Shown piece after piece: positions 15,694-64,000 of a DNA stretch of 64,000 bases. Origin of the DNA: a virus; IMG/VR virus record IMGVR_UViG_3300037264_004923, positions 37,764-101,763 of that record; one strand, given 5' to 3'. The notes below the pieces were generated by a model. That model saw only the letters and a program-made list of their open reading frames with translations. It searched no databases and was not told where the DNA came from. A program made the translations under genes and the position numbers. The first letter of the stretch is position 1, and every line of letters starts with the position of its first letter.

Positions 15694-16394
15694 AAAATGT
15701 CTCCTAAAATTACCGCGGATAAACCACCGGTAACTTGTTGTTGAATTACATGTGTTGCGCAAGCATGGGAAGCGCAGCCGTAATACTTGATCTCGACGCC
15801 TAAACAATTCTCGATGTGCTTGGCGTATATCACATCTTTCTTACTTCCCTTGCCCACATGAAGGAAGTATTTCGTGTGCCCATTGGATTCGGACAGAAGT
15901 GCTCTTAAATCCGGGACGTAATAATCTACCAATGGAGGTTCGGATAGTAGCTGATGTATTTGAGGAAAGGTATCGTACGCTTCCATACCCTCTTCATAAT
16001 AGCGTTGCTCCAATTCCGGGGTTAGAAAAGTCTGAGGACCAAAAGCATGAACTGTGTCCGCCTTCAAAAGGTACCCAAACATTATCGCGGCAAACCCACC
16101 GGCACTCACACCCACTAAGCGTAAATGCGTAGGCTGCGCCTCTTCTATTAACTCTTGTAACTTTGTTGCCGTTTTCGAAATGGAGTCAAGATCCTCGTTA
16201 AGTCCTTGTTGATACCAGACATACTTGTTATCCAAGCAGTATATCTTGGAACAATCTGCATGTCGTGTAGTTCGAACAAATTCAAAGTGCTCCAACTCTA
16301 TTAGACGAGATGCCATGCCGGCGAAGGTAATGATTAAGGCTTTCCCTGGGTTTAGTTCCCATTTAATCCCCTTTTCATTGGATAGGGTATCCAT
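15690..16394 (-). CDS. Alpha/beta hydrolase
   Basis: 234 residues. The nucleophile elbow GVSAGGFAAIMFGY (Ser of GxSxG at about 98), an early strand ALIITFAGMA and a late His-rich stretch (SHACATHVI) fit the fold. It lies in the middle of glycosyltransferases, so a deacylase or acyltransferase role on the glycan is possible. It could also be an esterase of unrelated function. Confidence 0.7.
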   Translation of the reverse strand: MDTLSNEKGIKWELNPGKALIITFAGMASRLIELEHFEFVRTTRHADCSKIYCLDNKYVWYQQGLNEDLDSISKTATKLQELIEEAQPTHLRLVGVSAGGFAAIMFGYLLKADTVHAFGPQTFLTPELEQRYYEEGMEAYDTFPQIHQLLSEPPLVDYYVPDLRALLSESNGHTKYFLHVGKGSKKDVIYAKHIENCLGVEIKYYGCASHACATHVIQQQVTGGLSAVILGDIL

Positions 16395-16406
16395 CCTACC
16401 TCCGGA

Positions 16407-17345
16407 CTATACTTGTTTCTCCTTTGCGCAAAGCTTTAGGTATTGATCAAACTTATGAATCTCGTGAAGGTGCGGCCGCTTATCATTATCTTCGCTATGT
16501 TGTTCTGCCCAGTCTTTGAACTCTTGGCATACTTGGCCACTCTTTAGGAGTGGATCCAAATCGTGGTACTTTTTCACTTCTGGATGATTCCTTTGAAGGA
16601 TGTCCAGCATTTCGTGCCAGGAATCAATCTTGAAACCATCCTTGAGAGGATAGAAGGTCAAATTCAAAGGTCCGCCTGGGTGCCAACGTGGGTCCTGACC
16701 GGTCTCCTTGAACCAATACTCAAAACTTTCCTTATGATCAGCCCAAACCCCGCCCGCGAAGAAGTTGCGGCAAGATCCTCGCAAGGAACCTGATTGGGTT
16801 TTATGGTGATAGTAAACAGCATTACATCGAACGCCGCCACGTTTCCCGACCATTGCCTGATGTAGATCAATCTCGAAACGTAGCTGATTATTCCAGGCGG
16901 TCAGCATTTCTCGATAGTAGTCGCTCGGCTGTCCCGTGTTTCCATCCCAACAATCAACGCAGCGGAAAGCTACGGTATCAAACTTGGAAGCATACTCGCT
17001 TTGCTGAATGATGGGGCGTAAAGACTGCAGCATCTCCTCGCTAGGAACTTCATCGTCGTCCAGCCAAAGCATCCAGCCGCCAGTGATTGCATCCAACCCG
17101 GCTTGATACTGAGCACGGAAAGAGTCATCCCACGGCCGATAAACGATTTCTAGATTAGGAATGGTCTGGAGATAGGCCTCGGCTTCTTCGTCTCGAAAAC
17201 CAATAACGATTAGAGCCCGATCTACATAGGGCATAATCAAAGGTAGGTTGCGCTTCAGCTTATCTAGGTGTGGGGTTGAAACGCACACATAGGTGAGGTA
17301 GTCCTGTTGCAATCTTTGGTTGACGACAGTGGTTCCGTAGTCCAT
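16407..17345 (-). CDS. Family 2-like glycosyltransferase
   Basis: 312 residues. YVCVSTPHLDKLKRNL, ALIVIGFRDEEAE and GGWMLWLDDDEVPSEEML (LDDDE as the DxD metal site) place it in GT-A. Later Trp/His-rich segments are shared with the next gene, so the two are probably paralogues. Its end codon overlaps nothing; its start overlaps the upstream stop by 1 nt. Confidence 0.8.
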   Translation of the reverse strand: MDYGTTVVNQRLQQDYLTYVCVSTPHLDKLKRNLPLIMPYVDRALIVIGFRDEEAEAYLQTIPNLEIVYRPWDDSFRAQYQAGLDAITGGWMLWLDDDEVPSEEMLQSLRPIIQQSEYASKFDTVAFRCVDCWDGNTGQPSDYYREMLTAWNNQLRFEIDLHQAMVGKRGGVRCNAVYYHHKTQSGSLRGSCRNFFAGGVWADHKESFEYWFKETGQDPRWHPGGPLNLTFYPLKDGFKIDSWHEMLDILQRNHPEVKKYHDLDPLLKSGQVCQEFKDWAEQHSEDNDKRPHLHEIHKFDQYLKLCAKEKQV

Positions 17346-18229
17346 TAGAAACTCATCTCCCCTGGGTAAGGCTTTCGATCAGGATCGTAGGTAGGAAATT
17401 CCTGATTCGTAAGACTTGGATTCAATTCTGGATGAAGCAAAACAAAATAGACCACAAAGAAAGATCTAAACTCGCTATTGACAGAGTTTCTCTGTTCAAC
17501 AAACCATTCAGTAAGAGGGGCAGGAACATTGCCCTCTCGCATCAGCTTTTCCAGCTGGTAGAAAGCGGTAATCCCTTCTTGCGAGCAGCGGGCACGTAGA
17601 TCCCGCCAAGCTGTCTCGTCTCCTGGTCCACCCGCGGGCTGAGAAATAGCAAATCCGTTCCTCGTACCTCGTAAGTGTACAGAGGCTTCAGAACGGACAT
17701 GGTAGTACTTGAAATCGACACGGGCGTGTCGGTGAGGAACTCCCAAGTTAATGCCTTCGTGATGAAGACCCTGATAAGTTATCTGCGGGGTCAGCTTAAA
17801 TAGGTTCGGGCACCAGAAATCGGGATTAGCTATCCGGGTAGAGCCGTCAAGCTGAGCTACAATATCGCAAGCTTTGAATTCTACAACGTTAATTCCGGCG
17901 ACCTCGGCCTGTCTAATGAGTTCTCGAAGATTGGAACCCCCCTCCAGAGAAATGAACTCGTCGACATCCAGGCGCATCATCCAGCCTGTTTTTTCCGCCG
18001 CGGCTAAATAACGATTGCGAAGGCGGATCGTCTGATAGCCCTCAAAGTCCAGAATAGCCGTGATCTTCAGGCGCTTTGCCTCGTCAGATACGAGCCAGTC
18101 ATTCATCTCAGGCTCAGAAGAATCAGAGACTACAATAACACGATCAAAGAACTGAGAGTTGTGATAGAGATTTCTCTTTAGTTCGCTAAAACGATTCTTT
18201 ACGATCATACCCATCACTACTTGATGCAT
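17345..18229 (-). CDS. Family 2-like glycosyltransferase
   Basis: About 294 residues from ATG 18229, preceded by GGAG at the right distance; an ATG at 18241 is possible. VVMGMIVKNRFSELKRN, DRVIVVSDSSEPE and GWMMRLDVDEFISLEGG (DVDE metal site) identify GT-A. The C-terminus is shared in style with the 16407 gene. Confidence 0.8.
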   Translation of the reverse strand: MHQVVMGMIVKNRFSELKRNLYHNSQFFDRVIVVSDSSEPEMNDWLVSDEAKRLKITAILDFEGYQTIRLRNRYLAAAEKTGWMMRLDVDEFISLEGGSNLRELIRQAEVAGINVVEFKACDIVAQLDGSTRIANPDFWCPNLFKLTPQITYQGLHHEGINLGVPHRHARVDFKYYHVRSEASVHLRGTRNGFAISQPAGGPGDETAWRDLRARCSQEGITAFYQLEKLMREGNVPAPLTEWFVEQRNSVNSEFRSFFVVYFVLLHPELNPSLTNQEFPTYDPDRKPYPGEMSF

Positions 18230-19017
18230 TGGTTTCTCCAATCTAGGAAAGCCCGGGGGTGGGTTCCTGTATAATCCAAAAACTCGGGTTCTATTTCTCT
18301 AACCTCGGGATTATCTACCGTGGTATCGATGTTCTTGGGCTTAAAATCATAAGGTTTAAGTTCGTGATCCTTGGGGATTTTATCCGCCGGATGAAACAAA
18401 CTATCCAAAACTTGGATCCTCTTACTGATTGTGAGAGGATTGCCGAAACGCTGGTAATGATAGATCCAGATCTCGGGAATAAGCGGGCGATACCCTGGGG
18501 TTGTTGGAACACAGTTGTGTCCGTCCAAAGTGGCATAGGTGTGAGTTCTCTTACGCGTGAGGCGTACCGCTTTGATCGTCCAATCCCTTCGAATACGCGA
18601 CATGTCTCCATAGAAACACACACGCTGAAACTCAAACCCTGTAATGTCCGGAGTAGCCCGATCAATAAGCAGGTGAAGATTATTCCTATCCTGCTCATGA
18701 AAGGCCTCGTCAAGCTGACAATGTAATTGCCAGTCAAAATAACATTCAGACATGGCTATGTCGGTCTGCCTTCCAATTTCTGTTCCGGCGTTTCTATTTT
18801 CCATGTTCCAAGCGGAAACAACCAGCTTCACATCAAAATCTTCCCGCAGCTTCTGGCAGACCTCAAAGGTCCCATCGTCTATCGTGGGATCGTAGCAAAG
18901 TATTACCTCGTCTGTTACGTTCGCAAGGGCTTCAACACATTGGCGAATAGGGTAGCCAAGCTCAACTACATTACGAGCAATGGTAAATCCACTAATCTTG
19001 TTTGTAGGCGATGACAT
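18217..19017 (-). CDS. Family 2-like glycosyltransferase
   Basis: 266 residues. ISGFTIARNVVELGYPIRQ, DEVILCYDPTIDDGT and FDWQLHCQLDEAFHE (QLDE at the metal site) fit GT-A enzymes. It overlaps the next methyltransferase by 26 nt. It completes a run of three adjacent GT-A paralogues (16.4-19.0 kb). Confidence 0.75.
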   Translation of the reverse strand: MSSPTNKISGFTIARNVVELGYPIRQCVEALANVTDEVILCYDPTIDDGTFEVCQKLREDFDVKLVVSAWNMENRNAGTEIGRQTDIAMSECYFDWQLHCQLDEAFHEQDRNNLHLLIDRATPDITGFEFQRVCFYGDMSRIRRDWTIKAVRLTRKRTHTYATLDGHNCVPTTPGYRPLIPEIWIYHYQRFGNPLTISKRIQVLDSLFHPADKIPKDHELKPYDFKPKNIDTTVDNPEVREIEPEFLDYTGTHPRAFLDWRNQCIK

Positions 19018-26978: not shown

Positions 26979-28751
26979 TTACGGAAGAAATGCCGTGCAG
27001 ACATGAGAGATGCCCGGGGCGAGGCTCGCGAGCGCGCGGCGCAGGCGGACGGAGTCTTCGAGATCACAGGCCGCGCTGCCGCCGACGTCACACTTTTCGG
27101 GCGCGGCAGGCGCGCTCTCCGAGCCGGCCAGGAACGAACGCAACGCGCTCACATCCGCGGCATCGATCCGGCCGTCGTCGCTCGTGTCGCCACACTGACA
27201 GAGATCGCCAATCCCGTCGGGTGACGCCGTCGCGAGCCCGCCCGAGTCGGTCTGCTCCGCGTTCGCCTCGACCGGGCAGTCGTCGAGCGCATCCTGGATG
27301 CCGTCGCCGTCGAAGTCGCCGCTCGCCGCCGCGACCGTCCCACCGAGATGCCCGCGAACCAGTATGCCGTTCGGGCTGGCGGTCGCGAAGAGCACGTCCG
27401 CGCCGGCGAGTCCGCCAACGCTGTTCGCGTGCAGGATCATCGGACCCGGGCAGCACTCCTGGCCGATTGCGCCGGCGGGACTGGTGGCGGCGATCGTCTG
27501 GGCTACACCGAAGCGCGACGCGAGCAGTGGGTGCGGCGATGCGAGGTTGCGCTTGTCGAACGCGAGCAGCGCGAGACCGCCGTCGTTGTACGACGTCGCG
27601 GCCAGAAAGTCGCCCGAAGCGCCGAAGCTCACCTGCGAGACGTAGGAGTACACGCCGCTCGCGCCCGGCGGCGGAGAAAGCACGATCGGGTTCAGGCCGC
27701 CGCGGATCACCCGCTTGCGCAGACAGGGGACACCCCCGGCGCTCGCGTAGCTACCGTCGTTGCAGGAGGGCCGTTGCAGGCGCGCATCGACCGCCGCTGC
27801 GGGCAGCGCGGCGATTCCGCGCACGTCGACCGCGACGAGCTGGCGCAGCGTCGCGGAGCCGGCGACCGCGACCGAGCTCGTCGGGTCGAGCGCGAGTCCG
27901 CGACCCGACGGATTGCCCGGTCCGAGCGGAATGGAGCCGACGAGCCGGCCGGTCGACACCTCGAGCACGTCGATGCTGCCCTGACCCGTGACCAGCGGCG
28001 GAAAACCGGCGTCGTAGATCCCCGCGTTGGTCACCGCGACGCGTCCGCCGGGAAGCGGGGTGAGGGCGACCGGGTTCGGATCCGAGGTGATCGCGAAGAA
28101 CGGGCTCGCCGGTGTCAGCGTCGTCGTCGCTCCGGAATCGTCGAGCGCGAAGAAAAGCACCGTGCCGGGATTCCAGATCGGATTCGATCCGGCCTGGTGG
28201 ATGTTCGAGGTCGCGACGACCAGACGATTCCCGACGCGCAGCGCGGAGCTGGTGAAGCTCGTCTTGAACGACGTGATCGCGGCGCCGGCGCCGGAATTCT
28301 GGTAGCGCGTGAACGCACCCGTGATCGTGTGCTTGGTCGGCACCGACGTGCGACTCTGACCCGAGTACAGAATCGTGTACCCGGCGCCACTCGCGTAGTT
28401 GAACGGCACGACGAGCTCGCAGTTCGACGTCGTGATCCATCCCCGAGTGACTCCGGTTCCGCGCTCGAGCGCCACGTTCCCGATCGTCGGCTCGTTGAAG
28501 GGCGCCGACTCGGTGCAGTTCACATTCCCCGGCAGCGAATACGACGCGCCGACATAGGCGAGCGCTTGCGTCGGCGCGATTCGCACCTCGAAGACGCCCG
28601 GGCCGTTACTCGATGCGGCGATGAAGGCGCGGTCGGGGTTGGTCGGGTGCGTCTCGAGCGCGGGCGGCGCAAACGTGTCGACGAGCAACGTGTCGGTTGC
28701 GGCCGAGCCGACGGAGAGGGTTGCAGCGAGCAGGGCGGCCGCCACGCTCAT
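26979..28751 (-). CDS. Secreted protein with thrombospondin-3-like and dockerin-like C-terminus (foreign segment)
   Basis: 590 residues from ATG 28751, with signal peptide MSVAAALLAATLSVGSA. The middle is beta-rich and propeller-like (repeated strands around LVAVDVRGIAALPAA). Residues near 500 carry DFDGDGIQDALDDCP, a calcium-binding TSP3-type repeat, and then GDTSDDGRIDAADVSALRSF, a dockerin-type EF-hand pair. This domain pairing is common in high-GC environmental bacteria (myxobacteria-like, Planctomycetes-like), not in phages. The ATG overlaps the stop of the preceding fragment (ATGA). Confidence 0.8.
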   Translation of the reverse strand: MSVAAALLAATLSVGSAATDTLLVDTFAPPALETHPTNPDRAFIAASSNGPGVFEVRIAPTQALAYVGASYSLPGNVNCTESAPFNEPTIGNVALERGTGVTRGWITTSNCELVVPFNYASGAGYTILYSGQSRTSVPTKHTITGAFTRYQNSGAGAAITSFKTSFTSSALRVGNRLVVATSNIHQAGSNPIWNPGTVLFFALDDSGATTTLTPASPFFAITSDPNPVALTPLPGGRVAVTNAGIYDAGFPPLVTGQGSIDVLEVSTGRLVGSIPLGPGNPSGRGLALDPTSSVAVAGSATLRQLVAVDVRGIAALPAAAVDARLQRPSCNDGSYASAGGVPCLRKRVIRGGLNPIVLSPPPGASGVYSYVSQVSFGASGDFLAATSYNDGGLALLAFDKRNLASPHPLLASRFGVAQTIAATSPAGAIGQECCPGPMILHANSVGGLAGADVLFATASPNGILVRGHLGGTVAAASGDFDGDGIQDALDDCPVEANAEQTDSGGLATASPDGIGDLCQCGDTSDDGRIDAADVSALRSFLAGSESAPAAPEKCDVGGSAACDLEDSVRLRRALASLAPGISHVCTAFLP

Positions 28752-28957
28752 GGCGTCCTCCCGCGCACGCGCAGCAGCCAGAGCGTCTGATTCGGCAGCG
28801 GCTGACCGAGCGAATCCGAGCGCTGCTCGTGAGTCAGGTTCGCGGCCTCGATCGATAGCGTCAGATCCGCGGGAAACAGCGCAAGCCCTGGCACGCGGCG
28901 CGGCCGGAGGATCACGCCCGCGTCGACCTGGAGCGCGGCGTCCGAGAGCGTCGCACG
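28748..28957 (-). pseudogene. 3' fragment of a bacterial gene (TonB-dependent receptor-like C-terminus)
   Basis: The last 69 or so residues of a protein: LTLSIEAANLTHEQRSDSLG, then QPLPNQTLWL and a terminal RGRTP. This matches the final strands of outer-membrane TonB-dependent receptors. It is cut by the right junction; the in-frame codons beyond it are phage sequence. Its stop overlaps the start of the secreted protein, which indicates a bacterial operon. Confidence 0.55.
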
Positions 28958-28969
28958 GCCAACCTCCAT
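28957..28969 (-). pseudogene. 5' end of the phage gene split by the foreign segment
   Basis: ATG at 28969-28967 follows GGGAG with a 6-base spacer and lies 16 bases after the upstream TGA at 28986. Only codons for MEVG and the first base(s) of an Arg codon remain before the GC-rich DNA. Its continuation is at 26859. Confidence 0.6.
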
Positions 28970-28985
28970 GTTTTTCTCCCATGTC

Positions 28986-46911: not shown

Positions 46912-49089
46912 TTAAGATCTGCTCTTATCGAGCTCTGACAAGCGGGCAACAACCATCTTACCTATACGATCCCAAGTAAAGTTCTCTGATATGTAATCTC
47001 GCGCCTTGGCACCCTTCGCACGGGACTCATCTCTGTTATTGTAGACGTGGCGCATTATGTTTATGGCGTTCTCCAAATCTGGTTCGCACCAATACTGGTC
47101 GCCTCGGTAGTACGGGGAAAATTTATTCATCCCGCATACGGGCGTCAAAGTGTAATTCGTCAAATAGCTATTATCTGGCTTCAAAAATTCCGTCTGTCCT
47201 CCATATCCTGGAGTGATGACGGGCTTGCCACAGGCTGCCGCTTCAAAGTGTGGAAGTCCCCAACCCTCGGATCGCTGTAGAAGTATAAAACAATCTGAGC
47301 GTTTGTGAAGAGCAAGAATGTTCTCCCGGCTCATATTCTCTACAACCAGAAACATTTTCGGAAAGTGTGGCAAGTTGATGAAGTTCTTGTATTCCATAAT
47401 CAGCTTACGAATCTGTTCTTTATCGCCACTATGATCGAAGAGGTAGGTCTTCAATACCAAAATTACATCCTCTACCCCACTGAAAGCAGCGCAGTAAGCG
47501 GAGAGAAGAGCGTAAGGATTCTTTCGCTCCTGCCATTGGAAAATGGAAGTGAAGACGAAAGGATTTCCGTCCAGCCCATTAAGATCGAAGGTAGGAAGAG
47601 AACCCATGTTCGGAACCTCTATGGCGTGAGGAACTTTGTGTAGAGGTACCGTAACGCCAGACTCTTTGAATACCTTCATGTTCCAGTCGCAGGGCAACCA
47701 AACCTCATTCGCTTTATTACAGGCTGTTACCCAAGTAGGATGAATCTTGCTAGACTCCCACACAGTATATCCGATGATGTACTTGTTCTTTTCGAAGCGC
47801 GTAAAGTTTTCCCAGAGGTCTGGGGTGGAGTGGACGATTACCTTATCGTAATCTATTCGGGCATTGATTAGCTCCCGAAGGGTATCTCCGTCCTTTCCCA
47901 GATCAGGGCGAGTACGCTCAAAGCTAATAGGCGCTAAGGTAACCGGATAGCCCTGACGATGGATAGACAGAACATAATTCCTGGCTGCCTCGGCATAGCC
48001 AGAGTTTCCGCACCACACCGCTTTGCCGTTCCTTCGAACAAAGAGAGTGTGATTAGGAACTGACGCGCAATACACCTTGCCCTTATATGTGATGCTCGTA
48101 TTTTTGGTAGCATCTCCGTTTCCCCAATTGGCGCCGTCTATAGCACAGAGTTGTTGTTTCCAGCGGACAGAAATGTTCCAGTTATCTTCTCTACAAACAC
48201 AATCTCTACCATAAATTTGTATCTTGTCTCCTTTTTCCTGAACCTTGGTATAAGAACCACTCAGCCCAGTTTTCAAAAGAAGCTCCATAAAATCATCTCG
48301 TAATCTAATGGAAGCAGTAGTGTAAGAAGAGCCTCCGTCTTTAGGCGCATGTCCATCTCCTAACATTAGAGCACTAAATAGTACCAGGAGTTGATTGCTG
48401 GAACACTGGTTCAGTATTTCACGAGGAATATACTTGTGATACTTATCTCCAAATGTAGATTTCAAATAAATAGCCAAGTTTTTGTCATTTACTATAGCAC
48501 GTTCTTCCTTCCTTACATTCACCTTATTGGTGGTTATTCTCTGTAAGGCGGCCGCCATTTTATCAAGGTGAATACCCGTCTGCCTTATTTGAACAATGTA
48601 GTGCTTGTTAGGAGTTACGGTAGAGGAACCTTCAGAAAGATAATAGCCCAAAAACTCCAACCACTCTTCTGTTTTTATTTGGCGACCACAAATTTCCACG
48701 AAAGGTAAATCAGGAACGGCGTTAAGGCAATCTTTTTTGAATAGTCTATACTTGCCTAAAACTTGCGCAGCCTTTTCAAAACGGAACCCAGAGCATTTTC
48801 GATTGTTTCTTCTAAAGATTTCAGGTGCAACGTACATGTTATGGTCAGGCGTAACCAAAAGATCTATACCGGCCCTGTGGTTATAGAAATGGCACATTTC
48901 CCCTTCCCAATCTTTGGCTATAAGTTGCTCAGGTTTATGATACTCCAAGTAACCAGAAGGATTCAAAGTGGCAAGGGGGTCTCCGAAGGATAGTTCTGAA
49001 AAGAATTTCCAACCGTCGGCAGTCAAGACTTCAGTCTCACTATCGTAACATCCATCAAAAACGGGACCGATATACTTTACGCCTGCCAT
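46912..49089 (-). CDS. GT-B glycosyltransferase interrupted by an intein
   Basis: 725 residues as translated. The N-extein is only 13 residues (ends GPVFDG), then the intein, then SGYAEAARNYVLSI and the rest of a GT4-type enzyme with DCFILLQRSEGWGLPHFEAAACGKPV, the classic GT4 donor-binding region. Removing the intein gives a 376-residue protein whose start, YIGPVFDGSGYAEAARNY, reads like an ordinary GT4 opening loop. Splicing is needed for activity. Paired with the GT4 gene at 49089. Confidence 0.9.
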   Translation of the reverse strand: MAGVKYIGPVFDGCYDSETEVLTADGWKFFSELSFGDPLATLNPSGYLEYHKPEQLIAKDWEGEMCHFYNHRAGIDLLVTPDHNMYVAPEIFRRNNRKCSGFRFEKAAQVLGKYRLFKKDCLNAVPDLPFVEICGRQIKTEEWLEFLGYYLSEGSSTVTPNKHYIVQIRQTGIHLDKMAAALQRITTNKVNVRKEERAIVNDKNLAIYLKSTFGDKYHKYIPREILNQCSSNQLLVLFSALMLGDGHAPKDGGSSYTTASIRLRDDFMELLLKTGLSGSYTKVQEKGDKIQIYGRDCVCREDNWNISVRWKQQLCAIDGANWGNGDATKNTSITYKGKVYCASVPNHTLFVRRNGKAVWCGNSGYAEAARNYVLSIHRQGYPVTLAPISFERTRPDLGKDGDTLRELINARIDYDKVIVHSTPDLWENFTRFEKNKYIIGYTVWESSKIHPTWVTACNKANEVWLPCDWNMKVFKESGVTVPLHKVPHAIEVPNMGSLPTFDLNGLDGNPFVFTSIFQWQERKNPYALLSAYCAAFSGVEDVILVLKTYLFDHSGDKEQIRKLIMEYKNFINLPHFPKMFLVVENMSRENILALHKRSDCFILLQRSEGWGLPHFEAAACGKPVITPGYGGQTEFLKPDNSYLTNYTLTPVCGMNKFSPYYRGDQYWCEPDLENAINIMRHVYNNRDESRAKGAKARDYISENFTWDRIGKMVVARLSELDKSRS
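48004..49050 (-). mobile_element. Intein with LAGLIDADG endonuclease domain (349 aa)
   Basis: Starts at Cys14 (CYDSETEVLTADGWKFF, block A). Block B is LLVTPDHNMYV with TxxH. The endonuclease helices are LEFLGYYLSEGS and LLVLFSALMLGDGHA. The C-terminal blocks are VYCASVPNHTLFV and KAVWCGN, followed by Ser as the +1 residue. The usual penultimate His is Gly here. The intein sits at the nucleotide-binding loop of the host enzyme, typical of its preference for conserved sites. Confidence 0.9.
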
Positions 49090-57926: not shown

Positions 57927-58269
57927 TCTGTTGAGCCTCCGAAACTTTACGCAAGAGATCTGCTACAGAAATAGGGATCTCATCGTAGTTGATACATACG
58001 AGGGTGACGTCGTTCAGACTGCACCACTCTTTCTTTAGTAGGTCTCTCTTTTTAGCGGCGCGAAAAGCAGCAGCGTCGCCATGAAAATGGGAGTTGAACT
58101 CCGTGTGCTGGATACCCTGAACCTCTACATAAATGTGGAGGGTGGGTAAATAAAAGTCAAAGAAGAGTTTCTGCCCTTTATAGGGAATGTATTCCTCTTC
58201 CTTGACGAGCGTATTCGGGAACGCGCTATTTAGCGTCTCTCGTACGCTTTTGGCTAGCAGGCTTATCAT
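57919..58269 (-). CDS. VSR-like or DUF559-like PD-(D/E)XK nuclease
   Basis: 116 residues from ATG 58269. LFFDFYLPTLHIYVEVQGIQHTEF holds Asp and E-x-Q/K-like core residues, followed by RAAKKRDLLKKEW and VTLVCINYDEI as in very-short-patch repair and DUF559 endonucleases. It overlaps recA by 44 nt. DNA cleavage at mismatches or nicks is an inference. Confidence 0.65.
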   Translation of the reverse strand: MISLLAKSVRETLNSAFPNTLVKEEEYIPYKGQKLFFDFYLPTLHIYVEVQGIQHTEFNSHFHGDAAAFRAAKKRDLLKKEWCSLNDVTLVCINYDEIPISVADLLRKVSEAQQNG

Positions 58270-59317
58270 CAGGTGTATCTTCCTTTGGAGCAACAGGTAC
58301 TTCTACAACCTCACCAGAAATCACAGAACGAATGCTCTTTTCGATAGCATCACGAAGCTCTGTGTTTCCCATGAGAGCAAGTTTGGCAGCACCTCTACCC
58401 TGCCACTTATGCTCTTTGTAGTTCAACCAAGCGCCGCCCTTTTCGATGATGCCCGTGTCGGCGCCGAGATCGATAATCTCTCCGACGTTATCATACCCTA
58501 TTCCGTAGATGAGATCTACCTCAGCTTCTCGGTAGGGAGCGTTTCGTTTGTTCTTGACTACACGAAAGGTAGTTCGGTGCCCATAAACCTCACCAGTTCC
58601 TTCGTCTTGAAGGCGACGGGATTTGCTCTGAGGGCTACCCATCACCTCGACCCGATAAGAAGCATAGAAACCCAGGGCCTCCCCGCCAGTTGTAGTTTGG
58701 GGATTTCCATAGGCTCCAATCTTGTTTCGGATCTGATTGATGAAAAGCAAAAGGGTATTGGTCTTCTTGGCGACGGGCACGATCTTCTGGAGGCCGGCGC
58801 TCATCAGTCTCGCGTGGAGACCCATAGTCTGTTGATCATAGTCATTCTCGACCCGGCTTTCTGGGATGAGAGCAGCGACGCTGTCAATCATAACGACCGC
58901 GAAGTCTCCAGTAGCCATCAGATTATCAGCGATCTGGAGGTTAGCTTCTCCCGTAGGGGCACCATCGACCACCAAAACCATGTCCGCTGGAAGACCCACA
59001 TTGATAAGAAGATTGGGATCCAAGGAGTTCTCGGCATCGATGATAGCACACTTATGTCCTTGGAGAGTTGCTTGCTTTATGATGCTATAACCGAGGAAAC
59101 TCTTTCCGGCTCCGCCTACTCCGAAAAACTCAGCGGTCAATCCCCTTTCAAATCCCCCTTTTCCAATAGCATTATCAAGTCCAATACAGCCGGTCGGTAT
59201 TACTTCTCTCGTTATTGCCGCTGCCTCTCCCAGCCATTTGATTACGTGCCCATACTCTTTCTCTATTGATTTGGTCACTACCCCGAGACGGGCTTCATTC
59301 TCTTTCTTTGTACTCAT
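58226..59317 (-). CDS. recA: RecA recombinase
   Basis: 363 residues. Walker A variant EFFGVGGAGKSFLG, VVMIDSVAALIPESR (Walker B and L1), and NQIRNKIGAYGNPQTTTGGEALGFYAS (L2 and following). The C-terminus has a long acidic/basic disordered tail. It catalyses strand exchange. It fits the RuvC, RecB-like and Rad52-like proteins in this window. Confidence 0.95.
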   Translation of the reverse strand: MSTKKENEARLGVVTKSIEKEYGHVIKWLGEAAAITREVIPTGCIGLDNAIGKGGFERGLTAEFFGVGGAGKSFLGYSIIKQATLQGHKCAIIDAENSLDPNLLINVGLPADMVLVVDGAPTGEANLQIADNLMATGDFAVVMIDSVAALIPESRVENDYDQQTMGLHARLMSAGLQKIVPVAKKTNTLLLFINQIRNKIGAYGNPQTTTGGEALGFYASYRVEVMGSPQSKSRRLQDEGTGEVYGHRTTFRVVKNKRNAPYREAEVDLIYGIGYDNVGEIIDLGADTGIIEKGGAWLNYKEHKWQGRGAAKLALMGNTELRDAIEKSIRSVISGEVVEVPVAPKEDTPDDKPASQKRTRDAK

Positions 59318-59837
59318 TCAGTTTCTCCAGTATTTTCTTCCGCTCATTGGCTGCTCTTTCAAAGTCCTTGGCGGCATTCTTCTTGTTGTAATACTCATTT
59401 ACCTCATTGAGATAGAGCTCTGTATCATATTCTCCCGCTTCCGCCACTTCTCCATTCATAAAGGAGCATACCTTGTCCATTGCCCACGCTTGGGATAGAA
59501 GAGTAGGACTGATTATAGGCTCTCGCAGCTTCATTTGCTTTTCAAAGCGGAACATAGCATCTACAAGGATTGCTGCTTCCCGAACAGCGTCTTTTCTACC
59601 CAGCCCCAATTTTTGACGGGATCTGATAAAAGTGCTCAGAGTCTTCACATCCTCAGTATAGTCAATGCTATAGGGAAACTTACGATCAGGGTTGTAAAAT
59701 CTGCGGCGACTATAGAAGTAATCCACCAGTTCCCGCAGAGTATTTATTGATCCGGCATCGGGATAGTCTTCTTTGACCACCCTGTAACCTCTACTCTGGA
59801 GTTCTTTGATGGCTTCTTGCTCATCAAAGAAGAGCAT
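59295..59837 (-). CDS. Hypothetical protein (180 aa)
   Basis: All-helical, charged (YFYSRRRFYNPDRKFPYSI, and a C-terminal coiled coil KDFERAANERKKILEKL). Between clamp and recA. Not recognised. Confidence 0.6.
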   Translation of the reverse strand: MLFFDEQEAIKELQSRGYRVVKEDYPDAGSINTLRELVDYFYSRRRFYNPDRKFPYSIDYTEDVKTLSTFIRSRQKLGLGRKDAVREAAILVDAMFRFEKQMKLREPIISPTLLSQAWAMDKVCSFMNGEVAEAGEYDTELYLNEVNEYYNKKNAAKDFERAANERKKILEKLNEYKERE

Positions 59838-59839
59838 TC

Positions 59840-61012
59840 TTAATCTACTTTCTTCAGGGTACAGACGAAGGCTTTGAAGTCGTCGTCCTTCTGAGACTTG
59901 AGCACTACCCCTTTGGCATCATTTGTGAAGTAGAACTCAAAGTGGCCCCCCTTCAGCTGCCGAATAGCGTTATGAAGCAGGGTGCTATCAAAGTGAAGGG
60001 TGAAGTCTTCTGGGGTCTCTACGACGAGCCCAGAACTCTCTGCTTCACCTGTAATGCTGGAGGTGGATACGATGGCGTTTCCAGCCTTCTCAGCTGCCAA
60101 AACCATTCTGTGGCTCTTGGCATCTACCGACGGCAGAATTCCCTGTAGGATGGACAGGAAGTCCTCCGTGGGGAAAGTGGCTCGCAAAAGCGCCTTAGTT
60201 TCCATGTAAGGTTCGTACTTCGGGAACGCGGTGTTTAGCAGAGTGCCCACCAGAACCGTACCGCCGCTCTTCAGGAAGAACTTCTCGTCCTCCACATAGA
60301 TGTCCACGGTATCAAACTTACCCGGATTGACCAATTTGGCAGCAACGGTGGCAAACTTTAGCCCTAAAATAAAAGAGCCGCGAAGTCCTTTGACTTCAGC
60401 GGCTTTCTTGAACTCAGCAATTTGGATACCATCAGTTGCGGCGAATACCACTTCCGCGTCTCCTAGGGAGAGGCTGATACAATTGAAGTGGAGCTTGGAG
60501 TTGTCTTTGGAGGCGGCGTGGCTCACCTTTGCCAAACCATCCATGAACTGGAAGGCTGGGAAGTGAGTTGCCTTGGCGCTATTAAAAACGGGGGTCTCTA
60601 CGAAGAAACCTGCGTTCAATAGGGCAAGGTTTCTCTTGGTGGGAAGGTTGGTGCCTGCTCGCACACGATTGGTTCCTACCAAATGAAGGGTTCCCTTCGA
60701 AGTAGTCTCCACCTTAATTTGGTTGGGCTCCCCGTCAAATCCTACATCCGTATAGGACGCATTGACTTGCGTAGTGATTGCCACACAGCGCACCAGCGCC
60801 TCACCTGGGTCTTGAACTTCGGCAGGAACTTCCACGCGAACATAAGAGGTGTCATCAAACGCCATAAATACCACGGAATTTCCGTTAGTTCGCAGCAGAA
60901 CACCAGTCTTTTCTTCAGCGATCGCTGAACTTACGGGCGCAATTTCATTACAGGTGTTCAACGCCCGCTTCAAATCTTGAGCAGTGATGGTAAACTTCAT
61001 CTGTTTCTCCAA
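59840..61012 (-). CDS. dnaN: DNA polymerase sliding clamp (beta)
   Basis: 390 residues, the standard length for a DnaN-type clamp with three repeats. The beginning (FTITAQDLKRALNTC) and the repeated LxxxL...F patterns fit the beta-clamp fold; SHRMVLAAEKAGNAIVS and the terminal FKAFVCTLKKVD match the last domain. It raises polymerase processivity. It has its own promoter. Confidence 0.85.
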   Translation of the reverse strand: MEKQMKFTITAQDLKRALNTCNEIAPVSSAIAEEKTGVLLRTNGNSVVFMAFDDTSYVRVEVPAEVQDPGEALVRCVAITTQVNASYTDVGFDGEPNQIKVETTSKGTLHLVGTNRVRAGTNLPTKRNLALLNAGFFVETPVFNSAKATHFPAFQFMDGLAKVSHAASKDNSKLHFNCISLSLGDAEVVFAATDGIQIAEFKKAAEVKGLRGSFILGLKFATVAAKLVNPGKFDTVDIYVEDEKFFLKSGGTVLVGTLLNTAFPKYEPYMETKALLRATFPTEDFLSILQGILPSVDAKSHRMVLAAEKAGNAIVSTSSITGEAESSGLVVETPEDFTLHFDSTLLHNAIRQLKGGHFEFYFTNDAKGVVLKSQKDDDFKAFVCTLKKVD

Positions 61013-61095: not shown

Positions 61096-63216
61096 TTATA
61101 CGCCGGTAATACTGGCAGCTAGGCTGCCATTGGATTCCTGGTAAATTGAAGCGGACAGGTCTGACGCATCCGCCCCCACCCCTGCTACCGTTGCGATGAG
61201 ATCATTGATGTCTCCAGTTCCATTGACCATCGCACCAAAGTCAGAGGGGAAAACTCTTCCGGCGATGGCATGGAGATCATCATAAGTATCACTTACCCCC
61301 ACTAGCGCTCGCAGACCTTTGTAGCCTCCCGCTGCGGTAATACTGGCACCAAGTTCTAACTGCCCTTCAAGTCCAAGAACCATGCCGATACAAGCCCTTA
61401 CGGCTGCGTCAATAGTGGCAAAGGATTGAATGTCTCCCCGCCGACAAATTCTGGCTACGGCAAAGTCTCCAAACAAGTTAGCCGCAATGGGCTGGAAAGA
61501 ACGTACATTGATGCGCCACTGCTCTTCTGAATCGCGGATAAAGGCATCATCTGTACCATTCACATAGATGAACTCTACCAGACGACCTTCCAGTTGTAGT
61601 CTGATCTCTTGAATGTTTAGGTTTTCTCCGCCGTTTCTCAAATCTGCGGCGGTCAAACGGGAGAGGGTAGGAACAACACGTGGAAGAGGGAAGCCTGCGG
61701 CTACTCGAGCATTCAGATCCTTGTATGTCAATGTTCCCGTGATCGCAGCGCCCAAGTTCTTTCCACGGAAAGGGGAGTATCTAATAGCAATTGAATCAGT
61801 GCTACGAAGAACCTTGGTCTTCTTATCTCTTCGAGGAGAGTATCGTACATTGATCACATCCATAGCGTGGATGATGTTGGGGGTATTTACACTGGCGCCC
61901 AGTTCGTGTTGGGCAAAGGAAATAATAACAGCAAGGAGGTTCTTTGCGTTCTTGGCTATAGCGGTGGCGGATAGTTCTTTGATAGCACTTCCGCCGTCGC
62001 ATTCGGGTCTTCCAATAACCGCCCGCAAATTTCTAGCAGACATGGTGCTTACGGTAAAGATGGCGGTGATGAAAGTTTCTGCCGCCCGAATAAAAGCACC
62101 AAGATCCTTGGTATCGCTGAGAGCTTCGATAAATGCACCCAAGAATGCCGTATTACGGTTGATAGTCATAACAGCGCCCAGATCTGCCGGATGAACACTC
62201 TGCGCAAAGGCAGGAAGTTCTCTGTTGCGGACACCAAAAGGAATAGTTCCTATGGTAGCAGTAATGTTCAATGCGCCCAGAAAATCTATGATCGCCGGAA
62301 GATCAACTTCTCCGCCTGTCTTGATAAGAGCCCCGAGATTATCCACGCCTTGAAAGGCACTGAGGATAACCGCAGACATGTTATCGTGATGTCCGATCGC
62401 AGTTATGTCAGCAAGGAAATCGTTCGGTCCCGGGTAAGTTGAATTGATGCTGGCAGGAAGATCCGGGCTTTCACTTAACAGATGGATCGCAGAGGGTAGG
62501 TTAGCAACTGCGCTGGCAGAGCCTCGAATGAATGCGCGGAAAGAAGGGCCTGGAATACCCAACATTCTGGCAGGAAGGTTCTTGAATGACATACCCAAAA
62601 CGGAGGCTGTGAGGTTATCACCAAAGGTAATAGCGATACTTGCCGAGAGATCCTTGGGAGACCAAATAATAGCACCAAGATTTCCACCAGTCTGACCAGT
62701 AATACGCCCACGAAGATCATAAGGGTAGACTAGGTTGATGCACGCGGGAAGATCATCAGTAAAGATAGGACGCGCGAGGATAGACGCCAAGAGGTCTTTG
62801 TACATGAACGTACCAAAGATGTCAGCACCAAGATCTGTCTGAAGCAAAGCAAAAATCGAGGCGGGAAGATCAGGAATACGATTCGTTAGATAGATAGCGG
62901 CAGGAAGATCTCGAGCAGCCTGACCAAAAATGATCGCTAGGAGTAAATCACTATTCGTCTTGACCGCGTTAATTCGCGCTTGAAGATCAGGAAAGTTGAA
63001 ACTGGTAGGTGGCTTCTTTATCGTGCCTTCGGTGATGTCGAAGTCAGAGATAAAAGAAATGCCATCTTGTGTGGCGTTGGGACGGGGATCAGCACCAACA
63101 ACTGCTCGAATGTGAGGACCTGTGTGGGCTTGTATAATTGAACGTATAACACTGCCGGCTTCGTCTCTTCCGGAATTGAAAAGCGCTGAATTATAGGTAA
63201 ACCTATTGTATACCAC
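61096..63216 (-). CDS. Large virion-like protein with short degenerate repeats
   Basis: 706 residues from GTG 63216 (AGGAGG before it). Most of the sequence consists of imperfect units of about 20-35 residues built around [DN]L.A.I, for example DLPASIFALLQ, NLGAIIWSP, DLGAFIRAA and DLHAIAG. The start MVYNRFTYNSALFNSG and the repeat style suggest a fibre or sheath-like structural protein, perhaps a beta-solenoid. No known enzyme motif is present. Function inferred. Confidence 0.55.
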   Translation of the reverse strand: MVYNRFTYNSALFNSGRDEAGSVIRSIIQAHTGPHIRAVVGADPRPNATQDGISFISDFDITEGTIKKPPTSFNFPDLQARINAVKTNSDLLLAIIFGQAARDLPAAIYLTNRIPDLPASIFALLQTDLGADIFGTFMYKDLLASILARPIFTDDLPACINLVYPYDLRGRITGQTGGNLGAIIWSPKDLSASIAITFGDNLTASVLGMSFKNLPARMLGIPGPSFRAFIRGSASAVANLPSAIHLLSESPDLPASINSTYPGPNDFLADITAIGHHDNMSAVILSAFQGVDNLGALIKTGGEVDLPAIIDFLGALNITATIGTIPFGVRNRELPAFAQSVHPADLGAVMTINRNTAFLGAFIEALSDTKDLGAFIRAAETFITAIFTVSTMSARNLRAVIGRPECDGGSAIKELSATAIAKNAKNLLAVIISFAQHELGASVNTPNIIHAMDVINVRYSPRRDKKTKVLRSTDSIAIRYSPFRGKNLGAAITGTLTYKDLNARVAAGFPLPRVVPTLSRLTAADLRNGGENLNIQEIRLQLEGRLVEFIYVNGTDDAFIRDSEEQWRINVRSFQPIAANLFGDFAVARICRRGDIQSFATIDAAVRACIGMVLGLEGQLELGASITAAGGYKGLRALVGVSDTYDDLHAIAGRVFPSDFGAMVNGTGDINDLIATVAGVGADASDLSASIYQESNGSLAASITGV

Positions 63217-63304
63217 GGTTTATCCTCCTCAGCGGTTGGCTGTTAGTTTCTCCTAGGGTGTGTTCAGATTTTTCCCTTGTAAATCTGGGTAAGAAGGTAA
63301 GAAA

Positions 63305-63332: not shown

Positions 63333-64000
63333 TTAGACTACTTCTATTCTACTGTAAAGTCTTTCTACCCAAATAGTAGGGGCGGCAACAACGTGCTCCA
63401 TCTCAACCAAAAGGATTTGGTCCACCTCTGTATTGATTATACCACTTGCGATAATCGGATTATTTACTACGGCCTGCGCGCCCAAATCACCAAGCCCCGT
63501 GGTAGTGCCGGTTGTGCCTGTTGAGTGGAAATACGTACCTCCCAGTCTTTGTTCAGATGTGCTAACGTTATTGATTTCAAAATCCAGCACCATCGCTCTT
63601 TCTATGGTGGTGCTGGTGACCAAATTTATGGTATTATCTTGGTAAAACGTTACCCCGCCGAACTTTATTCTCAAAGTAAGGGCGCGAGAGGAACCGGAAT
63701 TATTGAAATGGGATGCTAGTACTCTGCCTTTTATAGTACCGTTTGGTCCTAAACTATTGGCGGGTATAGTCCCGCTCATAACGGGAAATGGGTCTGCAGT
63801 GTCCACAAATCTCTGCCTAGTCCCGTTTATCTGGAAAAATCTTCTAGGAACCACAGGCATACCGGAGACGGTAAGGGAGTGGGAGAAGGTTCCAGTGTGT
63901 GCGGAGACTGTTCCGCCCGTTCTGTATTCGGTGCCGGACACTACTGCTCCGGATATAGTTACCGTACCGCTAGCCAAGACCTGAATCGCCCCAGCGTCAC
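63333..64000 (-). CDS. Virion-like protein, 5' end outside window
   Basis: The frame is open to the right edge (the residues before the first in-frame TTG at 63977 read DAGAIQV), so the gene starts beyond 64000. The 214 or more residues are Thr/Ser/Gly-rich and beta-like (GTVTISGAVVSGTEYRTGG, later VSTSEQRLGGTYFHSTG). It probably belongs to a decoration, tail or fibre protein. No motif recognised. Confidence 0.6.
   Translation of the reverse strand, partial: DAGAIQVLASGTVTISGAVVSGTEYRTGGTVSAHTGTFSHSLTVSGMPVVPRRFFQINGTRQRFVDTADPFPVMSGTIPANSLGPNGTIKGRVLASHFNNSGSSRALTLRIKFGGVTFYQDNTINLVTSTTIERAMVLDFEINNVSTSEQRLGGTYFHSTGTTGTTTGLGDLGAQAVVNNPIIASGIINTEVDQILLVEMEHVVAAPTIWVERLYSRIEVV

Follow-up and report, generated by a model that had tools for sequence, protein, structure and literature searches.

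A degenerate 12-13-residue repeat family in an uncultured lineage of large phages, a probable shaft of a virion-surface fibre or adhesin

We describe a family of phage proteins built from degenerate repeat units of 12-13 residues, which probably constitutes the shaft of a virion-surface fibre or adhesin in an uncultured lineage of large phages (up to ~300 kb). The member studied here is encoded in the window, i.e., the 64,000 analysed nucleotides that make up bases 37764-101763 of a linear, 101,763-base virus record (IMG/VR record IMGVR_UViG_3300037264_004923). In architecture the family follows a known plan, that of a solenoid shaft combined with lectin heads, and in sequence it appears to be new: we found no published text with the family's peptide strings, and by the measure of the literature, Pfam and PHROG searches the repeat family appears undescribed. 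The gene and the segments of its product are as follows:

61096..63216, minus strand: gene for the 706-residue repeat protein (706 open codons, GTG start, stop included)
63224..63230, minus strand: Shine-Dalgarno-like GAGGAGG, 7 nt upstream of the GTG start
62989..63216, minus strand: residues 1-76, N-terminal non-array region with the signature YNRxxYNSALYNAGR...AHTGPHIQAV, conserved in clade I alignments
62029..62988, minus strand: residues 77-396, main unit array of ~24-26 units of 10-16 residues, placed by motifs and segmentation
62509..62988, minus strand: residues 77-236, modelled segment with 13 predicted strands, one per unit (pLDDT 76)
61981..62076, minus strand: residues 381-412, specialised conserved units, xTAIxTxSTMxxxxLRAxIGxPxCxGGSA
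61759..61860, minus strand: residues 453-486, paired DxIx[VI]x[YF]S segments
61357..61662, minus strand: residues ~519-620, non-repeat, globular-looking domain, better conserved within clade I than any other part
61099..61356, minus strand: residues 621-706, C-terminal units, followed in six clade I relatives by two Laminin_G_3 domains

The GTG start is supported both by the GAGGAGG element and by the orthologues, which begin with [MV][TV]YNRF. Comparison with the 95%-identical gene of locus L002 yields dN 0.028 against dS 0.208 (dN/dS ~0.13), indicating that the gene is conserved as a protein and is under purifying selection. An ORF on the opposite strand (61613-62194) was set aside as a shadow ORF.

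A preliminary description of this DNA, made from the letters alone, had pointed to a 706-residue protein composed of degenerate [DN]L.A.I repeats, and the counts bear this out. The strict motif occurs 16 times, against a mean of 0.12 and a maximum of 2 in 1000 composition shuffles, and the wider form [DN]L.[AG].[IV] 20 times (mean 0.28, maximum 3 in 500 shuffles), the runner-up among the window's 118 ORFs with 100 residues or more having a single wider motif. Self-alignment of residues 77-440 recovers a period of 12-13 residues, with maxima at shifts of 12 residues (z 3.7) and 13 residues (z 3.6), and the orthologue in L006 reaches z 8.6 at offset 12. The unit has D/N at position 1, L at 2, A at 4, I at 6 and G/A/S at 8, followed by a loop of variable length; its anchoring on strict matches pre-chooses positions 1, 2, 4 and 6 but not position 8. 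Spacings between strict motifs are mostly 12, 13 or 14 residues, with 10-16 tolerated, in agreement with the varied spacers noted earlier. The recurrence of the unit by the dozen likewise holds for its degenerate form: segmentation of the protein delivers 47 unit-like pieces, and about 40 is the fairer count since some pieces are forced within the non-repeat domain. The array is not uniform, being interrupted by this domain at ~519-620 and by the specialised units at ~381-412 and 453-486.

Higher-order periodicity between units differs among members. The window protein displays no super-period, L039 has one at a lag of 3 units (z 7.0), and L041, L119 and L122 have one at a lag of 4 (z 3.3-4.8); a lag-2 similarity, as strict faces of a two-per-coil arrangement might give, was not seen. 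We considered that the lag of 3 might reflect a three-sided coil and abandoned the idea because of the lag of 4 in other members and the occurrence of extra single units. Scans of three members for established short repeats found no RTX GGxGxDxhx nonapeptides in any of them, no CsgA-like (curli) motif, and no excess over shuffles of tandem hexapeptides or A[DN]Lxx pentapeptides.

Profile searches agree with the earlier statement that no known repeat name could be assigned. The window protein (P0001) and P0003, P0004 and P0005 have no Pfam match at E 1, lyases and hydrolases included; the best PHROG matches of the 706-residue protein and of family queries (E 0.15-0.29) cover short stretches only; and a phmmer search of PDB sequences, with a best E of 0.39, found no solved relative. 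A tblastn search of 50,697 phage records returned nothing with P0005 as query, nor with P0001 at an E of up to 10, and four weak rows for P0003 (E 0.2-0.7), which lie on unrelated capsid or hypothetical genes and were rejected. Among the same records the clamp encoded in the window has no match, and the RecA and DNA polymerase have matches below 60% only. Moorella phage MTATph1, tried as a syntenic relative, was discarded on its unrelated gene order.

Relatives were recovered from IMG/VR with a protein query (one locus), a two-unit DNA pattern (three stretches), a RecA bait (80 of 211 loci kept) and profile searches (17 loci, then 8). Of the 80 RecA-bait loci, 13 contain an ORF with five or more strict motifs; they make up the full set of loci in which RecA is 43% identical or more and the upstream DNA extends for 3.5 kb or longer. 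Removal of duplicates (L030 of L029, L034 of L033 and L120 of L119) left 24 distinct members that fall into clade I (17 members, 44-95% identical to the window protein) and clade II (L006, L039, L041, L044, L119, L121 and L122; ~31% identical). Profile-profile comparison identifies the two clades as homologous (hhalign E 1.4e-43 over 528 columns), and matching driven by the repeats is excluded as the cause, since the non-repeat domain on its own aligns between the clades (probability 97.4, E 1.1e-11). Two clade I records measure 295,848 and 297,725 bases, which places the family in a large-phage lineage. Among five records searched, Terminase_6N matches occur in three (over the cut-off in one), and Baseplate_J and Phage_sheath_1C in none. 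The search of GTDB contigs gave one locus, L116, a clade I member with the full clamp-p180-RecA order on a contig labelled as a Candidatus Altiarchaeales MAG; this contig is likely viral, and perhaps mis-binned.

The length of the array varies little across the family. From residue 77 to an ETF motif at residue 380, all 14 clade I members that extend as far as residue 77 have 23-25 units, the 5'-truncated L110, L112 and L113 (16, 22 and 15 units) being left aside. Five of the six measured clade II members have 24-25 units, and the sixth, L039, has 76, with duplicated blocks of three units (z 7.0); L121 was not measurable with the clade II anchors. These anchors differ from those of clade I, and the counts, taken from our own segmentation, may be off by one or two. 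Directly after the array lies a Cys-bearing core, [LMI][RS]A[TV]I..C, which both clades have in common and which is present in 20 of 23 distinct members (counted with L002, L034 and L120 excluded; L102, L107 and L121 do not match). Further, E380, C406, D453, D474 and R484, among others, are invariant in all 17 clade I rows; this conservation marks the post-array part as more than a spacer, and it possibly houses an enzymatic or metal site. At the other end, residues 1-76 could possibly serve as a virion anchor. The N-terminal tag of clade II proteins, F[NTS]F..GGY..P, recurs on a small neighbouring gene (L122:6884-7231) and may be a shared virion-anchoring tag.

The preliminary description had suggested a beta-solenoid, and structure prediction favours this for part of the chain. 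An AlphaFold run on all 706 residues with 17 clade I orthologues produced a model of low confidence (pLDDT 29.7, pTM 0.21) that was not used. In contrast, residues 77-236 were modelled with a mean pLDDT of 76.1 and a pTM of 0.76, with 13 strands for 13 units. The input combined this segment with 126 thirteen-unit windows from 19 relatives (127 rows) and kept the register, with 94-100% hydrophobic residues at the Leu column of each unit; confidence came only with this repeat-enriched alignment, which can coax a solenoid from the predictor, and the five models spread from pLDDT 76 through 67, 51 and 50 to 29. In the best segment model, short repeats contribute one strand each and stack in parallel, as in beta-solenoids. 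Foldseek gave no match at E 0.001 in the PDB (111 at E 10) or in BFVD (370 at E 10), the best rows being nearly all beta-solenoids and none of them significant. Alignment with VIA-align gave Z 12.2 to SufB (2.9 A over 152 residues), Z 12.1 to RTX751 (3.1 A over 121 residues) and Z 10.5 to SufD (2.7 A over 150 residues), left-handed helices fitting at ~9 A only; as the program warns that for repeats a Z below ~13 may mean a common arrangement only, we claim the fold class alone. Together, the model and these alignments to right-handed flattened beta-helices suggest that the array is a right-handed, flattened, two-sheet beta-solenoid with ~25 residues, or two units, per coil, handedness and coil size being drawn from the structural alignments. 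The 160-residue segment would then correspond to ~6.5 coils; 121 residues of RTX would make ~6.7 turns of 18.

A different way of building a fibre from these units is an obligate trimer of other strand topology, such as a triple beta-spiral, with the monomeric solenoid an artefact of the predictor. Phage fibres are usually trimers, the full chain is predicted poorly as a monomer, and the single-unit differences in array length and the mixture of 3- and 4-unit super-periods would fit a modularity of one unit. We nevertheless consider this unlikely: a monomer suffices for a segment model of fair confidence, and the 12-13-residue unit is shorter than the repeat of the triple beta-spiral, which is ~15 residues. 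The solenoid could also belong to an enzyme, viz., a tailspike-type depolymerase with a right-handed beta-helix that cuts host surface sugars and has its active site at the conserved residues in the midst of the array. In its favour, the model aligns with several pectate lyases and with the tailspike of phage HK620 (Z 6.4), and the conserved units are non-uniform, with the five invariant residues and the Cys motif described above. It is rather improbable, however, given that these Z values sit at the background level of the tool's warning, that Pfam detects no lyase or hydrolase in any of the four proteins scanned and that the LamG fusions favour binding over cutting.

The fibre-or-adhesin reading draws its virion location from neighbouring genes and domain fusions, the repeat gene itself adjoining replication genes. 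The surrounding genes are:

63333..63998, minus strand: fibre-like neighbour with its 5' end beyond the record, 30% identical over 227 residues to L002:2-727
59840..61012, minus strand: DNA polymerase processivity factor (clamp), next downstream (phrog_947, E 3.1e-33)
59295..59837, minus strand: p180, a conserved 180-residue protein, recognised by synteny
58226..59317, minus strand: RecA-like recombinase, used as search bait

The neighbour at the right edge has no Pfam or PHROG match of its own, and its homolog L002:2-727 matches the tail fibre profile phrog_9942 with its N-terminus (30 residues, E 7.8e-5), which identifies it as fibre-like by homology. Upstream of the repeat gene of G001 is a run of large ORFs of up to 2664 residues, with matches to a tail fibre (phrog_9729, E 1.1e-6) and a virion structural profile (phrog_8510, E 7e-5). 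The encoding module has weak tail-fibre or structural PHROG matches to some upstream genes on one side and replication genes on the other; upstream neighbours had no functional profile match in 8 of 10 cases in one scan and 4 of 7 in another. The clamp is the next gene downstream in 22 of 26 loci (duplicates counted), with clamp, p180 and RecA co-directional, and 1-4 ORFs intervene in L002, L006 and L121. In L103 (4457-7809) p180, RecA and the helicase form a block whose orientation is reversed with respect to the repeat gene, reflecting a rearrangement or an assembly error. Two small ORFs that flank the repeat gene in L002 (1492-2130 and 4288-4881) look like homing endonucleases by eye and have no Pfam match; the window, where 83 bases separate the repeat gene from the clamp, has nothing equivalent to the second there.

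Other parts of the same virus record also carry genes worth recording. An open chain of at least 1019 residues (L003:15944-19000, at bases 15944-19000 and beyond) has an Rpb2 domain 6 (368-473) followed by an Rpb1 domain 2 (752-832, with NLDFDGD), domain content of an RNA polymerase-like protein with both barrels on a single chain. A class II glutamine amidotransferase (L004:7414-9144) adjoins a phiEco32-like COOH-NH2 ligase (L004:9166-10431), the two belonging to an amidoligase-type cluster towards the left end of the record. Within the window, a glycosyltransferase gene (46912-49089, minus strand) includes LAGLIDADG_3 (238-295) and matches to phage intein-bearing profiles at 9-123 and 317-365, and looks like a case of an intein within the enzyme. 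A 667-residue protein (26979-28982, minus strand) has a thrombospondin type 3 repeat, matches dockerin below the threshold and is otherwise unclassified.

For lectin domains within the repeat proteins, Pfam scans covered the six long members and the four proteins P0001, P0003, P0004 and P0005. Six of the 17 clade I members are 1102-1250 residues long and carry two Laminin_G_3 (LamG) domains after the C-terminal units; the window protein has no LamG domain by Pfam. Separate LamG genes lie one and three genes upstream of the repeat gene in G001, L027 combines a LamG fusion with an adjoining LamG gene, a LamG/DUF2341 gene is directly upstream in clade II locus L044, and LamG is encoded in all five records searched. 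Joint action of the rod and the lectins is best supported by this coupling of fusion and adjacency, which, with the fibre-like neighbours, also lends indirect support to the earlier proposal of a fibre as the probable role. The position next to the replication block raises the alternative of a non-virion protein, co-expressed with this block, with an early role in the host or at its surface; in agreement with it, the repeat gene of 22 of 26 loci lies directly upstream of clamp, p180 and RecA and points the same way. Yet fibre-like genes lie on the other side of the repeat gene, L006 has an additional non-replication gene between the repeat gene and the clamp, and the LamG fusions argue against it as well, so that we hold this to be distinctly improbable. 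That the protein sets a length in the virion, as a scaffold or ruler, is very improbable, for although a near-fixed unit number in two clades at ~30% identity (76 in one relative excepted) would suit a ruler, known tape measures are long helical proteins whereas the repeat protein is strand-rich, and lectin fusions are ill-suited to a ruler inside a tube.

For the favoured fibre or adhesin, we propose that each unit forms one beta-strand and a variable turn, with the L, A and I of DLxAxI facing the core, and that the strands stack in parallel into a right-handed, flattened solenoid, thereby forming a rod. At a rise of 4.8 A per coil, an array of ~24 units would have ~12 coils and measure near 6 nm. 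The N-terminal region would anchor this rod to the virion, and a host-binding surface would be presented by the C-terminal region, which includes the non-repeat domain and, in some relatives, the two LamG domains. A stiff surface rod, sometimes tipped with lectins, might thus help the phage hold its host. A more specific version is conceivable if doubtful: a counted rod, in which the unit number (~24-25 across the clades) sets the height of the receptor binder, with two units per coil, the conserved Thr-Met...Cys-Pro site at the end and interchangeable lectin heads, the unit number having been tripled in one phage by 3-unit duplications. If the fixed unit number is functional, members with 25 and 76 units would offer a natural series for relating fibre length to adsorption. 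More generally, the family defines a repeat absent from Pfam and PHROGs, with a testable fold and a tie to lectin-bearing fibres, and its unit could serve as a simple, extensible building block for solenoids.

Among known systems, the right-handed flattened beta-helix of SufB/SufD gives the best structural alignment of the segment model; the resemblance concerns the fold class only, with 8-9% identity amounting to no sequence relation, and with no role in iron-sulphur assembly. The RTX beta-roll is similarly a two-sheet right-handed roll (Z 12.1), the repeat protein differing in having no GGxGxDxhx. The curli CsgA beta-solenoid also has a strand per short repeat and two per coil (Z 12.0), but superposes at an rmsd of 8.1 A and has a motif that the repeat protein does not share. 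The HK620 tailspike (Z 6.4) and the Agrobacterium phage 7-7-1 fibre (Z 6.8) are likewise phage surface rods of stacked strands, without a sequence relation to the family and with Z at the background level. With regard to the lectins, the closest parallel is with the tail fibres of jumbo phages, which are reported to bear Laminin G3 domains (PMC7824862, section 3.4.5): both occur in large phages and have LamG (PF13385) on or beside a fibre protein, whereas in the present family, whose window member is without LamG, the shaft is a distinct, unclassified 12-13-residue repeat.
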